DNA of 64,000 nt from Adineta ricciae (Eukaryota; Rotifera; Eurotatoria; Adinetida; Adinetidae). Both the position numbers and the translations under genes were made by a program. Location of the stretch: assembly GCA_905250025.1 (NCBI GenBank), contig CAJNOJ010000061.1:248001-312000 (forward strand). Direction: 5' to 3'. The notes under the pieces were generated by a model. It did not search any database, was not told the origin of the DNA, and saw only the letters and a program-made list of their open reading frames with translations. This document shows positions 14,934 through 30,237 of this stretch, piece after piece; the stretch's first letter is position 1; every line of letters begins with the position of its first letter.

Positions 14934-17900
14934 GTACAAACAAACACAGCATGTGATCAAAGTTCGAATGTGTCAGATTCAGGTGTGAAATCGATTGTGC
15001 CAGATAATTCTTCCAACGACTCGTGTGTGTCGAAACTAATCTCGCACAAAGAATACGATCTTTTAACATCACAGACCAATGACAACGAGACTACCTTCAA
15101 TTACGAACTTTCCAGTAAATTTTTCTTACCAAAATCGACAAATTTCGTCATAGTTTTACTTTAGGTTTTATTACCAAAGTAGAACAGGTTTCTGATATAT
15201 TAACAATCGATTCAACAACTAATACTAATCAAGATAAACATGTATAATGATTTGTCATCTTGAAACTATAAACATCCCATCCTATTCTTTCAGCCCTTGG
15301 CAATCATAAAAAAACCATCACGTTCATCTCCTATTCTTCATCGATTATTACTGTCTCCAACAAAGCCTGCAAAAATATTAACAACTGGTAATATATCATC
15401 TCCTCAACATGTTTTAGCAGATAATCATACTGATGAATATCGAAATGATAAAAGTCCGCAATATCGACCGAGGCATTCATCAGTTTATCCATTCGACAAA
15501 CCATCAACACCGTCTGAGAATATTCTCAACAAGTACGTAGAAAGTGACTTTTTTATCAGAGAGGAACAAACCAGCTTGCGTTTTATTCTTTGTTAAGAAC
15601 TTCAAGTATTCCTCGAAAGTCATGCCGATCACCGGTCTATACTCGACGTTCTCAACAGCAGCGATTCAAAATAATCAACACGAAATGCGATCCAGAATCT
15701 TTACTATTTCAGCCAATAGCATTACTGTCCTTGGATACGAATGGAAATCTGTTACAAAGCGATCATCGACAAGTCAATTCTTCGAACAAGAACAAACGAG
15801 CACTTGAATCTTCCTGTTCTGAGCAGATTTTGATTAAACGTCGTCATCAAAAGTCAATCCCAAGTAAAATCTTTCTAATCTCTTGAAAATTCCGTATCTC
15901 TCTCGCTCCTTTCTAGTAATTATTGTCCAAAGACATTATTGTGTCACCTATCCAACGAATATTCAACGATGCGTTGATTGCCAGACAATAGATCCACCCG
16001 ATTTAACAATGCATCTCTCCGGCTGCCGATTTCAATATTGTCGAACGTAAAGATGATATTGATTTTCTTTTCCTAAATTCAAAACGATACGTTTTTCATT
16101 TAGCTTGCAATATCTCGGTGATGATCGTTATGAAGTTGATGGATTTACGACACCTGACAAAGCGAAATCTCAGGATCTTGAACATATCGTTGTTCCGAAC
16201 TCGAGTAAAGTCGAACAATTTTTTGAATAAACGCAGAAGAAATCGTTTGTCACGGCTTTAGGTGATCAACCGGCGCTGAGTTTCATCAGTGCGAACTACG
16301 TACTGACTCAGATATCGAAATTGTTCTGTTTGATGCTTGCATACGAACAAGCTCAACAATCAATACAAACTGAAAGTAAGACTGAACGATTTAACATGTT
16401 GTTTCTTCGATTGTTTCCTTTGAAAAGAGCAAATTATCTGGAAACGGTATGTATCAGGCTGGAGAGAAGTTTGTGATGAATGTTTGACAACATTGTTCAA
16501 TTATCACTACATGTGCAAACAATGTGGATATATGGTTTGCATTGAATGTTTAAATGAGTTCGCGCAAATGACACCTGAAAAGCGCAAAAGTAATCTTTTC
16601 AGAACGAAATGCCTCTTCAACTTATCGAGTTTATTTCAGAATTAAAACGTGCATGTATGCATCAAAATTCGTTTTGTTTGTCAGAGTTTATACCATGGAA
16701 TAGTAAGACAGTGCTAACTAATTGCAATTCATACACATTTTATATTTAGTTTTGACAAAGCTACGTTTGGACTGTATAGATTACCTTTCAAAATTACGAA
16801 TTGATTACTCGATAAGATTTCACCATTCATCACGAAATGAGAATCTTTCAATCTTTATTAAAAGTTTAAAAATGAAACGGTTATACGAGATACGCGATAT
16901 TCAAAAGACCTGGTCCGCTATCGATTGTGATTACGATTCCAATATCGAATTCTATTGTAATGGTCGTTTACCTGTTTTCAACGAATGGCATAGTGAGAAT
17001 GCTAAATGTGTATGTAGAGAGACGTATCCACGATGAATTTCATCTCTTAACATACTTGTCTCTCTAGTTTTTTCAACGTGTATGGGCGGCTAGTTGCCCA
17101 GTACTGGTTAAACGAGTTCATCGTAATCTATCGAAAACTCTATGGCATCCGAATGCATTTAAAGGACACATGCTTGATCATCGTGATACACCAGCATTGT
17201 GGGATTGTGAAACGTTGACACCCATTCCAACAAACGAGACAATTCTAACACAATTCTGGGATGGATTTGAACACTTAGACGGTAATGTTGAGTTGGCTGA
17301 ATGAAAACATTTAGAAAAAACAAGGAACGTTTTCTGAATAGTTCGATTGAGAGATCCTGAACATGGTGGACGCATGCGAATTCTTAAATTGAAAGATTGG
17401 CCAACAAAAAAAGATTTTGCATCCGTTTTTCCAACACGTCTACATGATTTGATGACAAACATTCCGTTTGGTAACTATGAACACAACCAATTCTAATGCT
17501 ATTTTCCTCAAATTCCATTAAGGTGACTACACTCGACGGTCGTATCAATATGATGGCATCACGTATCATGGCGGAGTTTTGAATATTGTCGAACGTTTAC
17601 CAGCGTGTCTTGTCAAGCCTGATCTAGGACCGAAACTCTACATTGCCTATAGTCCGTTTTCTTTTCGAAAATGTTGAGCTTCTTACTAACTTAATGATTG
17701 TTTCAGGTCAGTTAATCAGCCAATCATCGAGAAAAGCTGGTACTACCAATCTTCATATTGATGTATCGGATGCTATTAATGTTCTCGTCTACGTTGGTGT
17801 TGGTGGTCATGGTGAAGATGGATGTGATACTGAAGAAGAACTTCGACGTAAACAAGCTGATTGTTGTGAAAAAGTTTACATTTTGATTTTTGTACAGAAG

Positions 17901-18557
17901 TTGAACAGGAAATACTTCAGTCGAACATCGACGAAGTTCAATTGCAGCGATTAAGGAGCGGCGAGCGACCCGGAGCATTGTGGCATTTGTTTCGTTCGGA
18001 TGACGCGATGAAAATTCGTGAATACATTAGTCGAGTACGTTCCTTTTGCTTCATTGCTCTAGTTTACGGTTTGTCTTTTTAGACTAAACGGAAAGTAGCT
18101 GGAACTGATTCTATACATGATCAAACAGCTTACTTAGAAAAAGAAGATTTAGCTAATTTGAAGTCCAGTTGTCAAGTCGAAGTATATCCTATTGTTCAAT
18201 TTCTTGGTGATGCGATTTTTATACCGAGTGGCGCACCTCATCAAGTAAGTGCTAGAATAACTTGCTCGATTCCAATGCTAGAAACTGTTCTTCTTAGGTA
18301 AAAAATCTTCATTCGTGTATCAAAATTGCCGAAGATTTTGTTTCACCCGAAAATCTCGATCGATGCTTAATAACCACGAATGAATTTCGATCACTATCCA
18401 ACACTCATACAAACCATGCTGATATCCTTCAAGTAAGGAATCATTCTCGAAAGGTTTCAGTTCAATATTTGTCTTTCTCTAGGCGAAAAATATACTTTTC
18501 TACACCACACGCGATGCATTACATTCGTTGAGTGAATCCCATGAGCCTCGTTCGTAA
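14556..18557 (+). CDS. KDM3/JMJD1-type JmjC histone H3K9 demethylase
   Basis: Many short exons; the 5' end is uncertain. The first plausible ATG is at 14556 but its junction to the next exon (from about 14738) is unclear. KDM3 enzymes remove methyl groups from H3K9me1/2 in the nucleus using Fe(II) and 2-oxoglutarate. The N-terminal part is Ser/Thr-rich, with a Thr run from an ACA repeat near 14904-14933. Then come [22 protein letters not shown] and YEVDGFTTP, the KDM3 pre-zinc region. Next is the C6-type zinc finger [20 protein letters not shown] with MVCIECL (16470-16550). The linker [19 protein letters not shown] and FWDGFEH are also KDM3-like. The JmjC domain contains RPDLGPKMY-like [12 protein letters not shown], then [17 protein letters not shown] (iron ligands His and Asp), [18 protein letters not shown] (third His ligand) and [14 protein letters not shown]. 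Catalytic ligands are intact. The order and spacing match KDM3A/B/JMJD1C; the long N-terminus of vertebrate members is missing or much shorter. I cannot say which vertebrate paralogue is closest. Confidence 0.88.
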
Positions 18558-20617
18558 TCGTCGGCACTCAGTGTGCTCAGTTAACTAGAAGTTTAGAAAA
18601 TTCACCCTCTCGAATCTTTCATACGGCAGTTTGAATTTTATTTATTTTGCCGAATATCTGTTCTGTTTTGTTACTTGGTTGTTTGCGTCTCTCCGTACAT
18701 GTTTCTTTCAACAGATAACGACAGGTATAGGCTTTTATTCTTGCTTGTTTGTATAGTGTATATTCTTAAAAGATTTGTGCAGTTTTTGTATGTGATCATT
18801 CAATTTCATTTCATATACCTTCAATTGATTTTCTTTTGGTGTTTTGTTAAAGAAGAAATTTTAGTAAATAGAAGCAAATTTATCTAGATTTGAGCAAAAA
18901 ACCATGTGAAACAAGAACTATTACATATGCATCGATCGTGACTTATAAAATTTTCGATCTGTTGTTTTACATCTTATCGAACTTCACTGTCCGCATGATT
19001 CACATCAATCACTACCGTGAATATCATTGAGATAATCTATTTCCTCCGTTTCTTCTGCATCTTGCTGCCGAGTCTTAAGAAAACGTTTCATACATGCCAA
19101 TGATTCGATCCGAAGATAGACTAAATATATACATAAATGAATATATATGATATTCATCAAATAAGACATACGTTTACCTGCTACATAAATTGACTTGACA
19201 GTTTTATCTATCGGTGATTATTTTGTATTCCGCACCATCTAATAATTGTCTATGATACGAATTCTCTGCAAAATACTTCCGAACGACGTAAATAGATTGG
19301 TTCGTGACTTTAATTGGCTTTGTGGTAAGTGGATTATGCAGTTTGGCAAGTTTAATAAAAACTTTCGCTTCGAACGTAAACCCCCATTTTCTTGGTTCTT
19401 GGTAGAATAACTTCTACAGCGTTCAACGGTAAAATAGATTTTCTAACATTTACTTCTCAAGAAAATATTCACCAAGAAATTATAACCAGTACAGTTGGTT
19501 CAACCGTTCAAATTGTGAAAATCTCATCTATATTAAAGCATTACTGTTGTGTCTTATACAGTTTCACCGAACGCTAGCACGGCTCACTAAAATCTCAGTT
19601 ATTTAGAGTAAAGACAATATTTTCTTAAAAAGACAGCACAAAGTGATCTACTGCATACGATTCCAATCCTCTCAAATCTTCAAATACGGTCGATTTTCAG
19701 CGCTAATATTACCTTCGACTACAGCACTCATTTACCGTTGCGACTTTATTATGGTTTCTTTTTTCTAAAAGTGAAACTGATACAAACAATTTACCAAACT
19801 CTTGTTTTGGTTGTTATTCTCATCGTCAGAAAATTACTTCACCGTAGGCACGAATTGTGGAAAAGAATGTCGGCAGAATAGAGATCATCGAACCTCCTTT
19901 AATTCTTATGGTCGTACAAACCTCTTTTCAGAACTATTTCTTTCGGCAGTCGTCACGGTTACTTCTACCTGTATCTGTACATGAATACTTGAAGAGAGAT
20001 TAAGTCAGCATTCCACAGAAGACGACCTTTGATAGTCGATCGTATTAAAATGCAGATTAGCAAAAACGATGTCGTCAACGATTACTTGACGAAAAGTCGT
20101 ATTTCTGAAGTATATACTGATAAAAATAAATTGTTTGAAAGTATGTCTGATCGAAATGCATATGCCCAATTTTTTACAATAAGAACTTAGATCTCCTTTA
20201 GTTGTATACATAAATGGATAAATAACACACCCTCACCCTAGATGAAATATGCGGGTTAGTTATTTGGCATAGAATTTTGTACATCTCTGTTTCGCTTGAA
20301 CCAACGTGTAATAATATGCTGATATATCAATATTCTTTAGTGTGGAGAAAAATTCTAAGAAATTATCTTTGACTTAGATTTCCACGTATGCGCATTCATG
20401 AATAGAAAAGTTATATGTAGGAAATTCTGAATTCTGCCGCGTAAGCGTTCTGCAACGGCTGAAAAACCTTGCCAATTCTACAATAATTATTATTAGAATA
20501 GTTGGTTTATATTGTTACACAAAACAAATCAAGTAAGTACTTTTCGTCTAGACCAATTGAATATGTTGATATTTGATATTGTCTAGGTATTTAGCGATGC
20601 TTTTCGTTGTTTGTGCG
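18558..20617. other. Intergenic, no gene resolved
   Basis: Two kb between the convergent KDM3 and CMPK2-like genes. Several short frames occur, for example one at about 19990-20195 on the plus strand coding MQISKNDVVNDYLTKSR onward, but none resembles a known protein or splices convincingly to a neighbour. Could hold 3' untranslated regions and a decayed gene. Confidence 0.4.
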
Positions 20618-21591
20618 CTAACCATTTCGAATACGTTCGATCACTATTCCTACAATTTTGTCAATCGACTGGTTACTATCAATTGGATAGATACCTGGTA
20701 TACTTCGATAAATTTGATCCAGTCGCGACCGAAACTGCAAATCAGATGCAATCCTTCTTTCTTCATCATTAACTGGTGTTTTCGTTTGACGCTGATCGAT
20801 ACGTCGGCATCGTTCTTCCTCGTTTAAATGAAGATAAAATATATGAGATGGTTGTACAAGATACTGAGGCCAGCTTATTTCTTCATTAGACGTTAAGTTT
20901 GCACTTCGATTAGCTAAACTATAAGCAGCTGTTGTAGGCCAATATCGATCGAGAATAATGATAGTTTCATCGGAAGCTTTATTGAGTTTACTAGAAACCT
21001 CAATATCCCACAAATGAAAGAAATGCCGTTTGGTTGATTCATTCTGTTCATCGAAGTATGGTCGAAATAATTTTAGTTCGGCGGAAACAGATAATATAGA
21101 GCCAGATATGAGGTTGGAGCCTGCAAGTGCATTGGCCAGTGTGGTTTTTCCAACTCCGTCGATGCCTGTTGATAAATAACTGTATAAATAGAAAGATTCC
21201 TATTTTTTCGCGTGAAATTATTTACAGTTACTATCAGAACTCAGAGACCTTTATTTTTCACAAGTAGTTAATCCAAAGACATTTTTCTATATTTCTGCTG
21301 GTGAGATCATAGAAGAAAAAATATTTGCGCTTTACCTTCGATATCTACACAGTTAGCTTTTGTAATTTTATCTCTACTTAACACATCTTTCAAATGTGTC
21401 TCAGCTGTGTCCAAAATTCGTAGGAATTCGGTGAGCTTTTCAAATTTATTCGACAATTGAACATGGTCACGAAGAGCCTGTATTGTTTCCATTACTGTTT
21501 TCACAGGAGACTTGTATTGTGAAATTTTTCTAAAACGAACACATAAATTGGCATGTTTTGTACAAGAGACACATATGTACAATGCTATTCT
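20618..21591 (-). CDS. CMPK2: CMPK2-like (thymidylate-kinase fold) nucleoside monophosphate kinase
   Basis: Minus strand; at least two exons, ending at 20618. The C-terminal exon 21165-20618 joins by a GTAAAG..AACAG intron to an exon ending at 21336, completing the P-loop VDIEGIDGVGKTTLANAL across the junction. The family phosphorylates UMP, CMP and their deoxy forms (mitochondrial in vertebrates). Other marks: the substrate/LID-side motif ILDRYWPTTAAYSLA matching DRYWHSTATYA of vertebrate CMPK2, ISWPQYLVQPSHIFYLHLNE, EERCRRIDQR (LID arginines). The upstream exon begins at an acceptor at 21591 or 21529 and codes a helical region (TIQALRDHVQLSNKFEKLTEFL, then LDTAETHLKDVL). The start codon and any mitochondrial targeting sequence are not resolved. 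A 35-codon frame on the same strand near 21800-21695 could be a further 5' exon. It is a divergent neighbour of the PurZ-like gene. Confidence 0.82.
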
Positions 21592-22852
21592 CTACAAAAG
21601 AAACAATCTGTATTTTTAAACGAAACTATCAGCATCAGCAAAACAAAAATAGTAAGTGCACAGCATACAAATGGCGATGACAATATGTCTTATAGAAAAT
21701 ATTGTTCTTTGTAACAGGTTCTTTCCACCAAAAAGGTATAGAGGTAACATAAATACATCAACGGGTCAGCTTTTGCAGGGCGGTACTGGGGTAGTTTCAT
21801 CATATAACGATTCTGAGTGGCTCTAAATCAAATACAAATACTGTGGTGACTGGTAAAGAGGCAAATTTATCGCACCGGCTGTGCATCGAGAAAAGGCTTT
21901 TTTCTTTTTCTTTTTTTTTTTATTATGCTCGATATTGTAACATTCGGAAGTGCTTACATTGTATATGAAAGATGAATTAGGCAATTAAGCAATAACCTAG
22001 GATAGATGTTGGGAGTTGTTGACTTCCTTACAATCAGTTAAGACCTTATTCTAGTGATATATGTGCGAGAATGAGACATAAGGATGGGGGAGTTAAAAGA
22101 AGGGAGAAGCAAGAAGAAACGACACAAATAAAGCTACATCGAATGCTGAAATGTTGTACTGGTTATCGAGAAAAAGCTGACTCCAGACATGCAGTATATA
22201 ACGAATAGTCCTCATCGAAAGACATGAAACATCGACGAGAGATTCAGTAAGACTGCGAGAGTGCAGCAAGATAAACGGTGAGTGATGGAGGATGTGTTAT
22301 TTACTCATGTTTGTATACAACCAGAGGAGATAACGTTATAGTTTCTATGGGAAATTATGCATGAATGTGTGACGCAATCGAGTGCATGCTCTCTGCTCTT
22401 ACTTCTGTGGATTTCGATGTACTTTAGGTTACCTATCGCTTTTTGTGTTCGGTGCATGAGTATATAAACGCGTGTTTTATATTAGCATTGTGCGAATGTT
22501 TAGAAGAAGGAATAAATATAGGCGCACTACTATTAACGGACGCATCTCGCCCATCAACAATTGTCACAGTATGGTGTTGATGTCGAGAAGGAGTTTTGAA
22601 TGATAGCGTGTAGTTAGAACGTTGACTCAAGTGAGATAGTTTGTCCGAGTTGTGAATTATCGATTAAGAAAAGAAAGTATAGTCGCCACATCCATCCATT
22701 CATACTATCAGCTTGGTTACGTTCCATCTGAACCGACTTGTAAAGACATTTGCATCACTAGTCTGAAGACGTTATCTTTCATACCTCACAACATGATGAA
22801 TCTTGTTCACTACATATAATCATATACTTATGCAAATTAGGTATTCCTTCGA
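21592..22852. promoter_or_regulatory. Divergent intergenic region between CMPK2-like and PurZ-like genes
   Basis: About 1.2 kb. It should hold the promoters of both genes and perhaps 5' exons of the kinase gene. TTAG at about 22837-22840, preceded by pyrimidine-poor AT sequence, lies 12 bp before the PurZ-like ATG and could be a cis- or trans-splice acceptor. No other gene seen; a minus-strand frame at 22433-22630 has no recognisable features. Confidence 0.4.
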
Positions 22853-23935
22853 ATGGAACAGTCATTGGATATTATCTTTGATCTATGCTTTGGATCATCT
22901 GGAAAAGGACTCATTGGTGGATACTTGGCTACAAAAAATAAATATCATTTTGCCATTGAAAGCTATGGGGTACAAGCAGGCCATACTGTTATAAAAGAGG
23001 ATGGCACGAGATATATTGTACAACAATTACCACAGGCTTTAATCAATAACGATACACGATTGTATATTGGCGCTGGAGCTGTCATTGATCTAGAACAGCT
23101 TCAGAATGAAGTGGATCAATATCTTGGAGGAAAAGAATCTGCAAAAAATCGGCTTTTCATTCATCCAAGAGCATCAGTAATTCAGCAGCGACATCGTGAT
23201 TGGGAAAAAGAGATAATACGATCCGGTAGTACATTTAAAGGTGTTGGTGCAGCCAGTGCTTTCAAAGTCATGCGACATCCCGATCATAAATTAATGCGTG
23301 ATATCCCGGAATGGTCCGATTTCATGGCCGATACAGCTGAAATGGCATGCGACGATTTACGACAAGGCAAAGCAGGCATCTTAGAAGTAGCACAAGGTTT
23401 TGAATTGGGTATTAACCATGGCTTACAATATCCAAATTGTACAAGCAGAGAATGCTCACCAATGCAAGGGTTATCAGATAATGGTATTCCCATAAAATTC
23501 GTTCGAAACATCTATGGTGTCATTCGAACATATCCGATTCGTATTTCAAACGAAATGGCTAAGGAGGATGGCGGTCAAGCATATTCTGGCGATGGTGGAA
23601 TAGAACTCACATGGGAAGAAGTAGAAAAACGGAGTGGTGCACATCCAGGCACATTTTCTTCGAAAGAATATTCCACGGTTACAAAAAAGCTTCGACGTGT
23701 GTTCGAATTAGATATAAACCGAATCAAACGTGCAGTCAAATTGACGGGTGTTACAAAATTGGCTGTCAATTTCATACAGTACATAAATTATCAAGATGCT
23801 GGCATTACCGAATACGACAAGCTCTCTGATAAATCCAAAACGTTCATCGAAATGGTCGAAAAAGCAACATGTGTTCCAGTAATATTGATTGGCACAGGTG
23901 CAAGAAATGATCAAGTCATAGATAGAACAATTTGA
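22853..23935 (+). CDS. PurZ-like short adenylosuccinate synthetase family protein
   Basis: A single uninterrupted exon of 360 codons with no introns, although most neighbours are split every 100-300 bp. PurA enzymes join Asp to IMP using GTP; phage PurZ joins Asp to dGMP, leading to 2-aminoadenine (Z). Family marks: P-loop FGSSGKG (residues 13-19, canonical WGDEGKG), QAGHTV (41-46, with the catalytic His 44), STFKGVGAASAF (126-137), LEVAQGFELGINHG (177-190), YPNCTSRE, GVIRTYPIR (222-230), ELTWEEVEKRSG (251-262), STVTKKLRRVFELD (274-287) and a C-terminal GITEYDKLSDKSKTFIE. The Asp of WGDEGKG, a catalytic base in PurA, is Ser 15. At 360 aa it is far shorter than animal ADSS (about 430-460) and matches the archaeal/phage short class. 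AATAAA is 79 bp past the stop, at 24014-24019. Start chosen because the P-loop then falls at the usual distance from the N-terminus. Likely horizontally acquired (inference). Substrate is unproven: it could also be a diverged archaeal-type PurA. Confidence 0.88.
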   Translation: MEQSLDIIFDLCFGSSGKGLIGGYLATKNKYHFAIESYGVQAGHTVIKEDGTRYIVQQLPQALINNDTRLYIGAGAVIDLEQLQNEVDQYLGGKESAKNRLFIHPRASVIQQRHRDWEKEIIRSGSTFKGVGAASAFKVMRHPDHKLMRDIPEWSDFMADTAEMACDDLRQGKAGILEVAQGFELGINHGLQYPNCTSRECSPMQGLSDNGIPIKFVRNIYGVIRTYPIRISNEMAKEDGGQAYSGDGGIELTWEEVEKRSGAHPGTFSSKEYSTVTKKLRRVFELDINRIKRAVKLTGVTKLAVNFIQYINYQDAGITEYDKLSDKSKTFIEMVEKATCVPVILIGTGARNDQVIDRTI

Positions 23936-24376
23936 AAAGTTTATTCACTTCGAATTTGACCATTGTTCACGATAAACTGTATAATTCTTATATTTTTTCT
24001 CGTGAATAGTTATAATAAATACACAATAATCCTGACAACGCTATGAGAGCAAACGAATCCGTAATAGATAAGAATCGCCTGAGTTGCCTACAGCTTCGCA
24101 CGTTGTTCCTATTTTTATATCTGTTCAATAAATTAATTCAAATAAAATCAGTCTTTTCTCAGCCATCTAGACATAGTCGTACAAATTTGAACGCCTGTAC
24201 TTTTCCACTAGATGTCTATGGATGACAATGTACGTTAATATACCAAATGAATTCGACTCTTCTTCTCTTCTTTTTTCGTTCTCCTTCGCCTTCTGTACAC
24301 TATTCACCAAATAGACTTAAAACCATTCCTATATAAATTTTCATAATAAATATTTCTTTTTGTCTCTTATATCACA
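23936..24376. other. 3' UTR and promoter gap
   Basis: Contains the poly(A) signal AATAAA at 24014-24019 for the PurZ-like gene and a second AATAAA around 24126. The rest is AT-rich promoter-like sequence for the next gene. Confidence 0.5.
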
Positions 24377-25257
24377 ATGGCTCATCATCTGAAACGGTTA
24401 CGGCATGATAATCGAAATTCTGATCCACATGATTTCTCTCATAATCACGATAGTCGTTCACGTTTACCAAATGATGAACAAATTCGTGAATCAATGCAAA
24501 ATTTCACTGTTACAGCTAGTAGTAATACCAAACAATCACGACCAGTACGTAATTTTGAGACAATTTTCTCTTCACTATTCTTACGATTTTAGTTCAAGCC
24601 AGGACCACAACGAGCACGACGTGGCGGTGCACGCGCACACGATCGTCGTTGGCACTCCTCATTATCATTACCAAAACGAGCAATCAATTATGATTTAGCC
24701 GAAAGCTTTCTTGATCATTCCACCAATCCATTATCGTCAAATTTATATAAAGTCAAATTCAAACATTCGACTAAACAATGGCCAAATGGCCGTTTTATCA
24801 ACTATAAAGAAAAACTTGATAAATTGGATGGAAATCCAAGTGACGTAGTATGTACACGAACGTTTTCAGTCGTTGCGAAAAGAAAAAAACTTGCCGAAAC
24901 CAACCAAATCGCCCCGACGACATCGCTATTATCTCTGATTGATCCCGTTACACAAGAAGAAAAGAAGAAACAGGTTACTAAACAATCAACTGTCTACGCC
25001 AACCTATTTGGTGGCGGACGAATCCCTAAAGTAAGTTCTCGTCCTCAATACCGAATGATTAGTCTTCATTTATAAAGTACGAGAGGTTAAAAATATACAC
25101 TTCTAAACTCCAGACATAACGCCAAATGCTATCATTTTCATCTTCATAGTTATCGACTACCAATCAAGTAAAAAAGGCTACATCCATGATTAATCCAACT
25201 CCATCATCGATCGCAATCTCATTACTTGACGAAAACTTCAAAGGTCAGCAATCGTAA
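24377..25257 (+). CDS. Unrecognised basic 237-aa protein
   Basis: Three exons, 24377-24544, 24593-25030 and 25150-25257, all phase 0, with GTACGT..TTTTAG and GTAAGT..CATAG introns; they sum to 237 aa. I do not recognise it. The N-terminus is rich in His, Asp, Arg and Ser (MAHHLKRLRHDNRNSDPHDF). The second exon starts with an Arg/Gly-rich segment (GPQRARRGGARAHDRRW) followed by a more ordered part: AINYDLAESFLDHSTN, KVKFKHSTKQWPNGRFINYK, then a Lys-rich TQEEKKKQVTKQSTVYANLF. No signal peptide or membrane segment. The Arg/Gly run suggests nucleic-acid binding, but that is a guess. The clean splice sites and codon continuity argue that it is a real gene. Confidence 0.65.

Positions 25258-30237
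<4,980 letters not shown>

Follow-up and report, generated by a model that had tools for sequence, protein, structure and literature searches.

Can an animal encode an enzyme for making 2-aminoadenine (Z) nucleotides? The question is raised by a gene of the bdelloid rotifer Adineta ricciae, which lies in the 64,000-nucleotide stretch of DNA analysed here (C61:248001-312000 of the assembly, hereafter the window) and whose product resembles both adenylosuccinate synthetase (PurA) and PurZ, its counterpart in Z-genome phages. Phages are known to make 2-aminoadenine DNA, and databases also contain a few archaeal PurZ relatives, as described in PMC12884076. Bdelloids already write the bacterial modification N4-methylcytosine (4mC) into their own DNA, according to PMC8885841. 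Among the titles and abstracts listed by searches of open-licence PMC papers, we found none describing a PurZ-like gene in a eukaryote. The gene described here is a real, unusual and foreign-looking gene in an animal. A captured PurZ-type gene in animals that write 4mC would extend the question of the DNA alphabet to eukaryotes. The animal may be able to make the 2-aminoadenine building block, a claim that can be tested directly, and the finding also points to apparently unstudied enzymes of the Ser type (Ser replacing the catalytic Asp of PurA) on bacterial chromosomes and plasmids.

An intact PurZ-like gene in the rotifer

The open reading frame (ORF) at 22853..23935 is present as the original prediction had claimed: on the forward strand, it starts with ATG, ends with TGA, contains no intron and encodes 360 residues, with FGSSGKG where PurA has WGDEGKG. 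The segments ELTWEEVEKRSG and STVTKKLRRVF, which had been taken to recall short phage or archaeal enzymes, are both found in the protein. It matches the Pfam family PF00709 (E=8e-37), the NCBIfam PurZ model NF038379 (4.5e-64, 216.5 bits), PHROG_1211 (4.6e-59) and PurZ of phage phiVC8 (PDB 6fko, 3e-41); judged by these scores, the family matches lie far beyond chance. Single-sequence scans with the protein returned no relatives, and PADLOC gave no match for it. A genome search with the protein matched one place only in the assembly, indicating a single copy. The guanine-cytosine (GC) content of the gene is 0.395 vs 0.357-0.398 in four neighbouring frames, and the mean log probability of its codons is -1.00. 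Scored with the same table, the four host frames from which it was built give -0.90 to -0.99, the kinase exon -1.23 and three relatives from bacteria or phages -1.03 to -1.15. Codon use is weak evidence on the origin of the gene.

Active-site residues of the PurZ type

The pocket residues of the rotifer protein were mapped by alignment onto the S-2L PurZ pocket described in PMC8342488. Gly22 and Ser23 of S-2L PurZ correspond to rotifer Gly14 and Ser15, and Ala50, Gly51, His52 and Thr53 to residues 42-45, so that the catalytic His of QAGHTV (residues 41-46), which had been predicted to be kept, is His44. Also kept are Ser131, Thr132, Arg146, Gln190, Cys204, Thr205 and Arg240 (S-2L numbering). 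Thr273 is replaced by Ser274, where PurA has Gly, and Asn305, Phe306, Gln308 and Tyr309 align with residues 306, 307, Gln309 and 310. Val241 corresponds to Ile231, which is followed by a 13-residue insertion not seen in the PurA rows of the alignment. The three substrate-contacting residues unique to PurZ (S-2L S23, T273 and Q308) are thus represented by Ser15, Ser274 and Gln309, while the PurA hallmarks are replaced, with GSSGKG instead of GDEGKG and Gln309 instead of the Asp at the donor-base position. Departures from the S-2L pocket are Gln20 to Cys12, Asn49 to Gln41, Tyr203 to Asn195 and Pro336 to Ala350; Gln at the position of Gln41 occurs in 7 of 132 aligned sequences, the rotifer protein counted.

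The published S-2L work places Ser23 next to the 2-amino group of the substrate and ties the insertion after V241 to exclusion of the ribose 2'-OH (PMC8342488). At the catalytic position, PMC12884076 describes Ser in 147/147 phage sequences, while its 4 archaeal sequences have Ser or Gly. Where the other 55 rows of the alignment are invariant, the rotifer protein agrees with them in 21/21 columns; of the columns conserved at >=90% it keeps 40/44, the 4th lowest value of 56 rows. Its AlphaFold2 (AF2) model, with a mean predicted local distance difference test score (pLDDT) of 93.1 and a predicted template modelling score (pTM) of 0.92, matches the PurA/PurZ folds; the shape of the insertion is uncertain in this model (pLDDT 62-65).

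Grouping with Ser-type enzymes

Relatives were collected by tblastn over phages (201 records, led by Bacillus phage vB_BpsS-140, L001, at 41%) and over plasmids (20 records), from IMG/VR scans (among the matches listed) and from a GTDB genome scan. The latter gave four loci, in Heliobacterium chlorum (L171, 42%), two Bacilli metagenome-assembled genomes (MAGs; L172 and L173) and a Christensenella MAG (L174). Among the matches listed, the nearest relatives are Bacillota chromosomal genes and phages, and not archaeal PurA.

A maximum-likelihood (ML) tree was computed with IQ-TREE from 59 taxa, comprising no eukaryotic adenylosuccinate synthetase (ADSS) and with L174 taken without its start. In this tree, the rotifer protein falls inside a 44-taxon Ser-type clade together with phiVC8 and S-2L PurZ (ultrafast bootstrap, UFBoot, 100; SH-like approximate likelihood-ratio test, SH-aLRT, 99), and six D-type taxa, which have the catalytic Asp, stand apart (98.8/100). 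Membership in the Ser-type clade is the best-supported placement; within the clade, support around the rotifer protein is weak. Its terminal branch measures 0.61, and those of near relatives 0.39-1.14. We then regrafted the protein on all 113 branches, the remaining tree being held fixed. The best place was as sister to L172 and L174, the chromosomal genes of Bacilli and Christensenella, and a phage contig (L178). Sixteen of the 113 places were not rejected, all of them within the 44-taxon clade, and they leave the rotifer protein either inside or outside the classical PurZ group; D-type branches were rejected by the approximately unbiased (AU) test (p <= 0.0012). In an earlier FastTree run, the rotifer gene paired with L092 and L001 (0.916). 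Once L171-L174 and L178 were added, L092 and L001 formed a group separate from it. The ML placement with phage and other Ser-type enzymes agrees with the original prediction.

Residue classes and gene context of the relatives

We surveyed residue classes in 180 distinct relatives listed from 246 loci, a sample that is non-random since it was recruited by patterns around the rotifer protein. The catalytic position is occupied by Ser in 137, by Asp in 42 and by a gap in 1. Ser combined with Asn or Gln at the donor position occurs in 105/180, with a homologue of the Z-cluster proteins DatZ or MazZ nearby in 55 and 40 cases, respectively, and a PolA-type polymerase in 67. Ser combined with Asp occurs in 30/180 (DatZ 7, MazZ 2, PolA 13) and Asp with Asp in 42/180 (DatZ 0, MazZ 0, PolA 0), the remaining 3 being gapped or different at one of both positions. 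Because of these DatZ and MazZ counts, the residue pair of the rotifer protein goes with the Z-cluster class.

Several bacterial and phage neighbourhoods were recorded along the way. Ser-type genes lie on contigs of the small-genome Bacilli and Christensenella MAGs (L172:3310-4407, L173:6001-7092 and L174), with a germination protease gene near the one in L172; the L172 MAG also contains a short AdSS-like fragment whose P-loop is altered to GLYEKEGKGK (L302:3499-3675, reverse strand). The Heliobacterium genome has both PurA and PurB. A cassette made of a Ser-type AdSS, an adjoining DUF7002 gene and a nucleoside monophosphate (NMP) kinase recurs in L006:5822-10099, L008:5818-10102 and L171:5965-13020. 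Its kinase is an N-terminal fusion in rhizobial plasmids and a separate guanylate kinase, followed by a SIR2_2 protein, in Heliobacterium. L006 also carries a divergent YfbR/DatZ-like HD gene. DUF7002 is found near 5/246 listed loci, and a literature search for the word DUF7002 returned no paper. In Bacillus phage vB_BpsS-140 (L001:11923-23145), the Ser-type gene is accompanied by dut and adk, with no DatZ found in the stretch examined; the 48.9-52.5 kb part of this record has no annotated gene. A Sinorhizobium medicae plasmid (L247:2995-5057) encodes another Ser-type enzyme, directly followed by an uncharacterised 340-aa gene. On a Rhizobium leguminosarum plasmid (L010:4345-10599), FolE, a D-type short PurA, PurB, QueE, IMP dehydrogenase, a nitrile hydratase subunit and QueC form a cluster that looks like a 7-deazapurine pathway.

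The gene is embedded in a host contig

The PurZ-like gene sits in the middle of the 456-kb contig C61 of a 130.5 Mb assembly of 1,033 contigs. That this is an animal genome, as claimed, is borne out by the length of the contig, by gene order typical of degenerate tetraploidy and by an N4CMT-like gene: N6_N4 methyltransferase has two matches in the genome, and the one examined has SPPY and a C-terminal chromodomain (the latter judged by eye), the same build as that reported for bdelloid N4CMT in PMC8885841. Over 4.2 kb, contigs C20 and C69 agree at 94-95%. Each of them is homoeologous to C61 and shares collinear blocks with it at 67-84% identity: both retain the lipase, the gene at 15.3-18.5 kb and the blocks at 24.7-26.4 kb, and the protein kinase is retained on C20 only (Table 1). 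That kinase is a tandem duplicate on C20 (L278:2229-5263) and single in the window, and the first 9.9 kb of C69 showed no copy of it. The PurZ-like gene is absent from the homoeologous locus, with no remnant in the C20 and C69 stretches examined by tblastn at E 10. Queries of 5.6 and 5.5 kb turned up no second allele for this region of C61, which is therefore collapsed, hemizygous or unassembled. The ordinary ADSS genes lie elsewhere, on C207/C169 (94% alike) and on C48, and are interrupted by introns; the synthetase on C207 keeps WGDE, reading AQWGDE, then an intron, then GKGK.

Table 1. Coordinates of the features in the window
Feature	Position	Strand	Remark
PurZ-like gene, single exon, 360 aa, adenylosuccinate synthetase superfamily	22853..23935	+	intact ORF, family matches
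P-loop FGSSGKG, residues 13-19	22889..22909	+	Ser15 (22895-22897) aligns with S-2L PurZ Ser23 and PurA catalytic Asp13
QAGHTV, residues 41-46	22973..22990	+	catalytic His44 kept; Gln41 where Asn is usual
13-residue insertion, residues 232-244, after Ile231	23546..23584	+	site of the S-2L PurZ insertion beside Val241; none in PurA
Aspartate-binding loop and arginines YSTVTKKLRR, residues 273-282	23669..23698	+	Ser274: Thr in PurZ, Gly in PurA
Gln309	23777..23779	+	aligns with S-2L PurZ Gln308, which contacts the ATP/dATP base; PurA and PurZ0 (Wayne) have Asp
AATAAA, polyadenylation-type signal	24014..24019	+	about 80 bases past the stop codon; motif match only
Upstream host gene	15264..18538	+	order kept on C20 and C69
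Interval with kinase gene and PurZ-like gene	18539..24667		6.1 kb on C61 vs 1.66 kb on C20
Thymidylate-kinase-family gene, exon 2	20618..21165	-	PF02223 5.4e-13; divergent to PurZ-like gene
Thymidylate-kinase-family gene, exon 1	21336..21492	-	C1 paralogue shares the intron position
Downstream host genes	24668..28634	+	blocks at 24668-26426 collinear on C20 and C69
Protein kinase exons	27439-28634	+	present on C20; no match in the C69 stretch examined

Head-to-head with the PurZ-like gene lies a thymidylate-kinase-family gene (20618-21492, reverse strand), which is likewise absent from the homoeologous interval and which resembles animal CMPK2. Because its paralogue on C1 has the same intron position, it is a host duplicate, and joint transfer of the two genes is ruled out. 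In bacteria, PurZ-like genes repeatedly have a nucleotide kinase gene as neighbour; here the neighbourhood is perhaps due to chance. The Z-cluster partners DatZ, MazZ and DpoZ were not seen beside the rotifer gene, DpoZ not having been searched genome-wide. A genome search with PF12917 gave 5 YfbR/HD matches, none of them established as DatZ. The searches with PF04447 (dATP-dGTP_PPHyd) and DUF7002 were empty in the rotifer as in control genomes. The telomere-like repeat TGTGGG x5 was found 28 times; read backwards as a control, the pattern amounts to a shifted copy of itself, and nothing is concluded from the count.

Proposed function and alternative explanations

On balance, we lean towards the view that the gene encodes a horizontally acquired, working ligase of (d)GMP, aspartate and ATP, with N6-succino-2-amino-(d)AMP as the predicted product. 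The direction of transfer, the donor, and the substrate, product and role of the enzyme are what we infer here. Bdelloids would have acquired a Ser-type gene whose probable source is a Bacillota bacterium or a Bacillota phage, and this gene is predicted to have been kept as a working enzyme, because its frame is intact, all invariant residues are present and its branch has an ordinary length. The enzyme would bind a 2-aminopurine 5'-nucleotide, probably dGMP, a reading of substrate and product suggested by Ser15, Ser274, Gln309 and the insertion near the 2'-OH. PurA phosphorylates O6 of its substrate, and Asp then displaces the phosphate. By analogy, the gamma-phosphate of ATP would be moved to O6 of dGMP and aspartate would displace it, yielding the succino-product. 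The host adenylosuccinate lyase and nucleotide kinases are candidates that could turn this product into dZMP and dZTP; Vibrio enzymes are described as completing this route in vitro for phage phiVC8 (PMC8342488). The outcome would be a small 2-aminoadenine nucleotide pool added to an animal. The scheme includes no dATP-removing enzymes, which in phages permit full replacement of A by Z. Possible uses would be in the animal's own DNA, for instance at patches repaired after desiccation or in mobile elements that are silenced, or else as a nucleotide directed against parasites. It is doubtful, in our estimation, that the rotifer both makes and uses 2-aminoadenine deoxynucleotides through this enzyme, which would make it the first eukaryote with Z-nucleotide metabolism.

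Several results weigh against the proposed function. The score of 216.5 bits on NF038379 is below the curated cut-off of 300, which phiVC8 (397.2), S-2L (349.8) and Wayne (366.7) all exceed, and the NCBIfam archaeal short PurA model gives 212.2 bits, also under its cut-off. L001, L092, L171, L172 and L178 score like the rotifer protein (177-222 bits). Measured by this profile, the claim that the protein is a PurZ fails, and the claim that it works like one is the stronger of the two; the protein is a member of an unstudied Ser-type subgroup. The PurZ-type reading first proposed holds for the Asp to Ser exchange and the retained His44, and Ser274, Gln309 and the insertion, which it had not named, add to it; that the enzyme makes 2-aminoadenylosuccinate is a prediction. 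DatZ, MazZ and PolA were not found in the flanks examined (6-25 kb) of the near relatives L001, L092, L171-L174, L178 and L198. In the three MAGs of L172-L174 (1.0-1.5 Mb; completeness not given), PurB was not found, and a PF00709 search returned the Ser-type gene and no full-length ordinary PurA. Finally, when the rest of the tree was free to change, a tree constrained to unite the rotifer protein with D-type taxa was 34 log units worse but was not rejected (p-AU 0.156), and faster constrained searches gave p-AU 0.09 for such a clade. In the longer searches, those with p-AU 0.156, a control constrained only to separate the D type from the Ser type was itself 10.7 log units worse, and they were therefore not fully converged. 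The original prediction was to fall if the protein lay inside ordinary PurA with IMP-binding residues kept. This was not seen, and PurA branches were rejected on the fixed tree, but the constrained test is less decisive.

The same origin could also have led to an enzyme with another substrate, or with the succino-product as its end point, that is, a nucleotide or natural-product ligase serving for example in defence or nucleotide removal. We rate this as rather unlikely, even if the missing Z-cluster genes and the MAGs, with one short fragment as their only further PurA-like sequence, speak for it. The same holds for the non-phage settings of Ser-type relatives, which are fused to an NMP kinase in rhizobial plasmids and in Heliobacterium have DUF7002, a guanylate kinase and a SIR2 protein as neighbours, and for the pocket changes Cys12, Gln41 and Asn195. 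However, the rotifer protein retains every invariant residue as well as the donor and 2'-loop features of the PurZ type, the MAGs may be incomplete, and the flanks were short.

An IMP-using second ADSS of archaeal-like type is improbable. The near-equality of the two model scores (212 vs 216 bits), the best fold match of the AF2 model, which is Pyrococcus PurA, and the constrained joint clade are all in its favour, but the catalytic Asp is absent, Gln309 stands where PurA has Asp, the Ser-type clade has full bootstrap support, D-type branches are rejected on the fixed tree, and the genome already has canonical ADSS loci. We give similarly little credence to a decaying or inactive acquired gene. 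The single copy, its presence at one homoeologous locus only and the four departures at the >=90% columns speak for it; against this, the 360-codon frame is intact, 21/21 invariant residues are kept, the terminal branch falls within the range of near relatives and the AF2 model is of high confidence. Bacterial or phage contamination or misassembly, which an intronless gene of foreign phylogeny might suggest, is hardly conceivable and in effect ruled out, because the gene lies mid-contig with host-like GC between intron-bearing host genes whose order on both flanks is that of C20 and C69.

Comparison with known systems

The proposed ligase resembles PurZ of phiVC8 (6FKO) and S-2L (7ODX) in the Ser at the catalytic position, the Thr or Ser of the aspartate loop, the Asn or Gln at the donor-base position, its short length and its fold, and shares the loop insertion with S-2L. 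It differs from them in sequence (32-33% identity), in its profile score, in its animal host with no Z-cluster around, and in Cys12, Gln41, Ile231, Asn195 and Ala350. PurZ0 of actinophages (Wayne; 7VF6) also has Ser at the catalytic position and has Thr in the aspartate loop, but it has the donor-base Asp, lacks the insertion and stands outside the 44-taxon clade. The short D-type PurA enzymes (Pyrococcus 5K7X/2D7U; Rhizobium L010) have the catalytic Asp, Gly in the aspartate loop, the donor-base Asp and no insertion; they are apart in the ML tree, one constrained test allowing a joint clade.

The Bacillota Ser-type enzymes (L171-L174) are 35-42% identical to the rotifer protein, and L172-L174 share with it the donor-position Gln and the YPIRISN stretch. 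They differ in having bacterial hosts, which for L172-L174 are the MAGs mentioned above; to our knowledge, their function is unstudied. Finally, the bacterial DNA methyltransferase N4CMT, described as captured by bdelloids (PMC8885841), offers a parallel in the same animals, being horizontally acquired and concerned with the chemistry of DNA bases. It is an unrelated enzyme and its substrate is DNA, whereas the PurZ-like enzyme would act on nucleotides.
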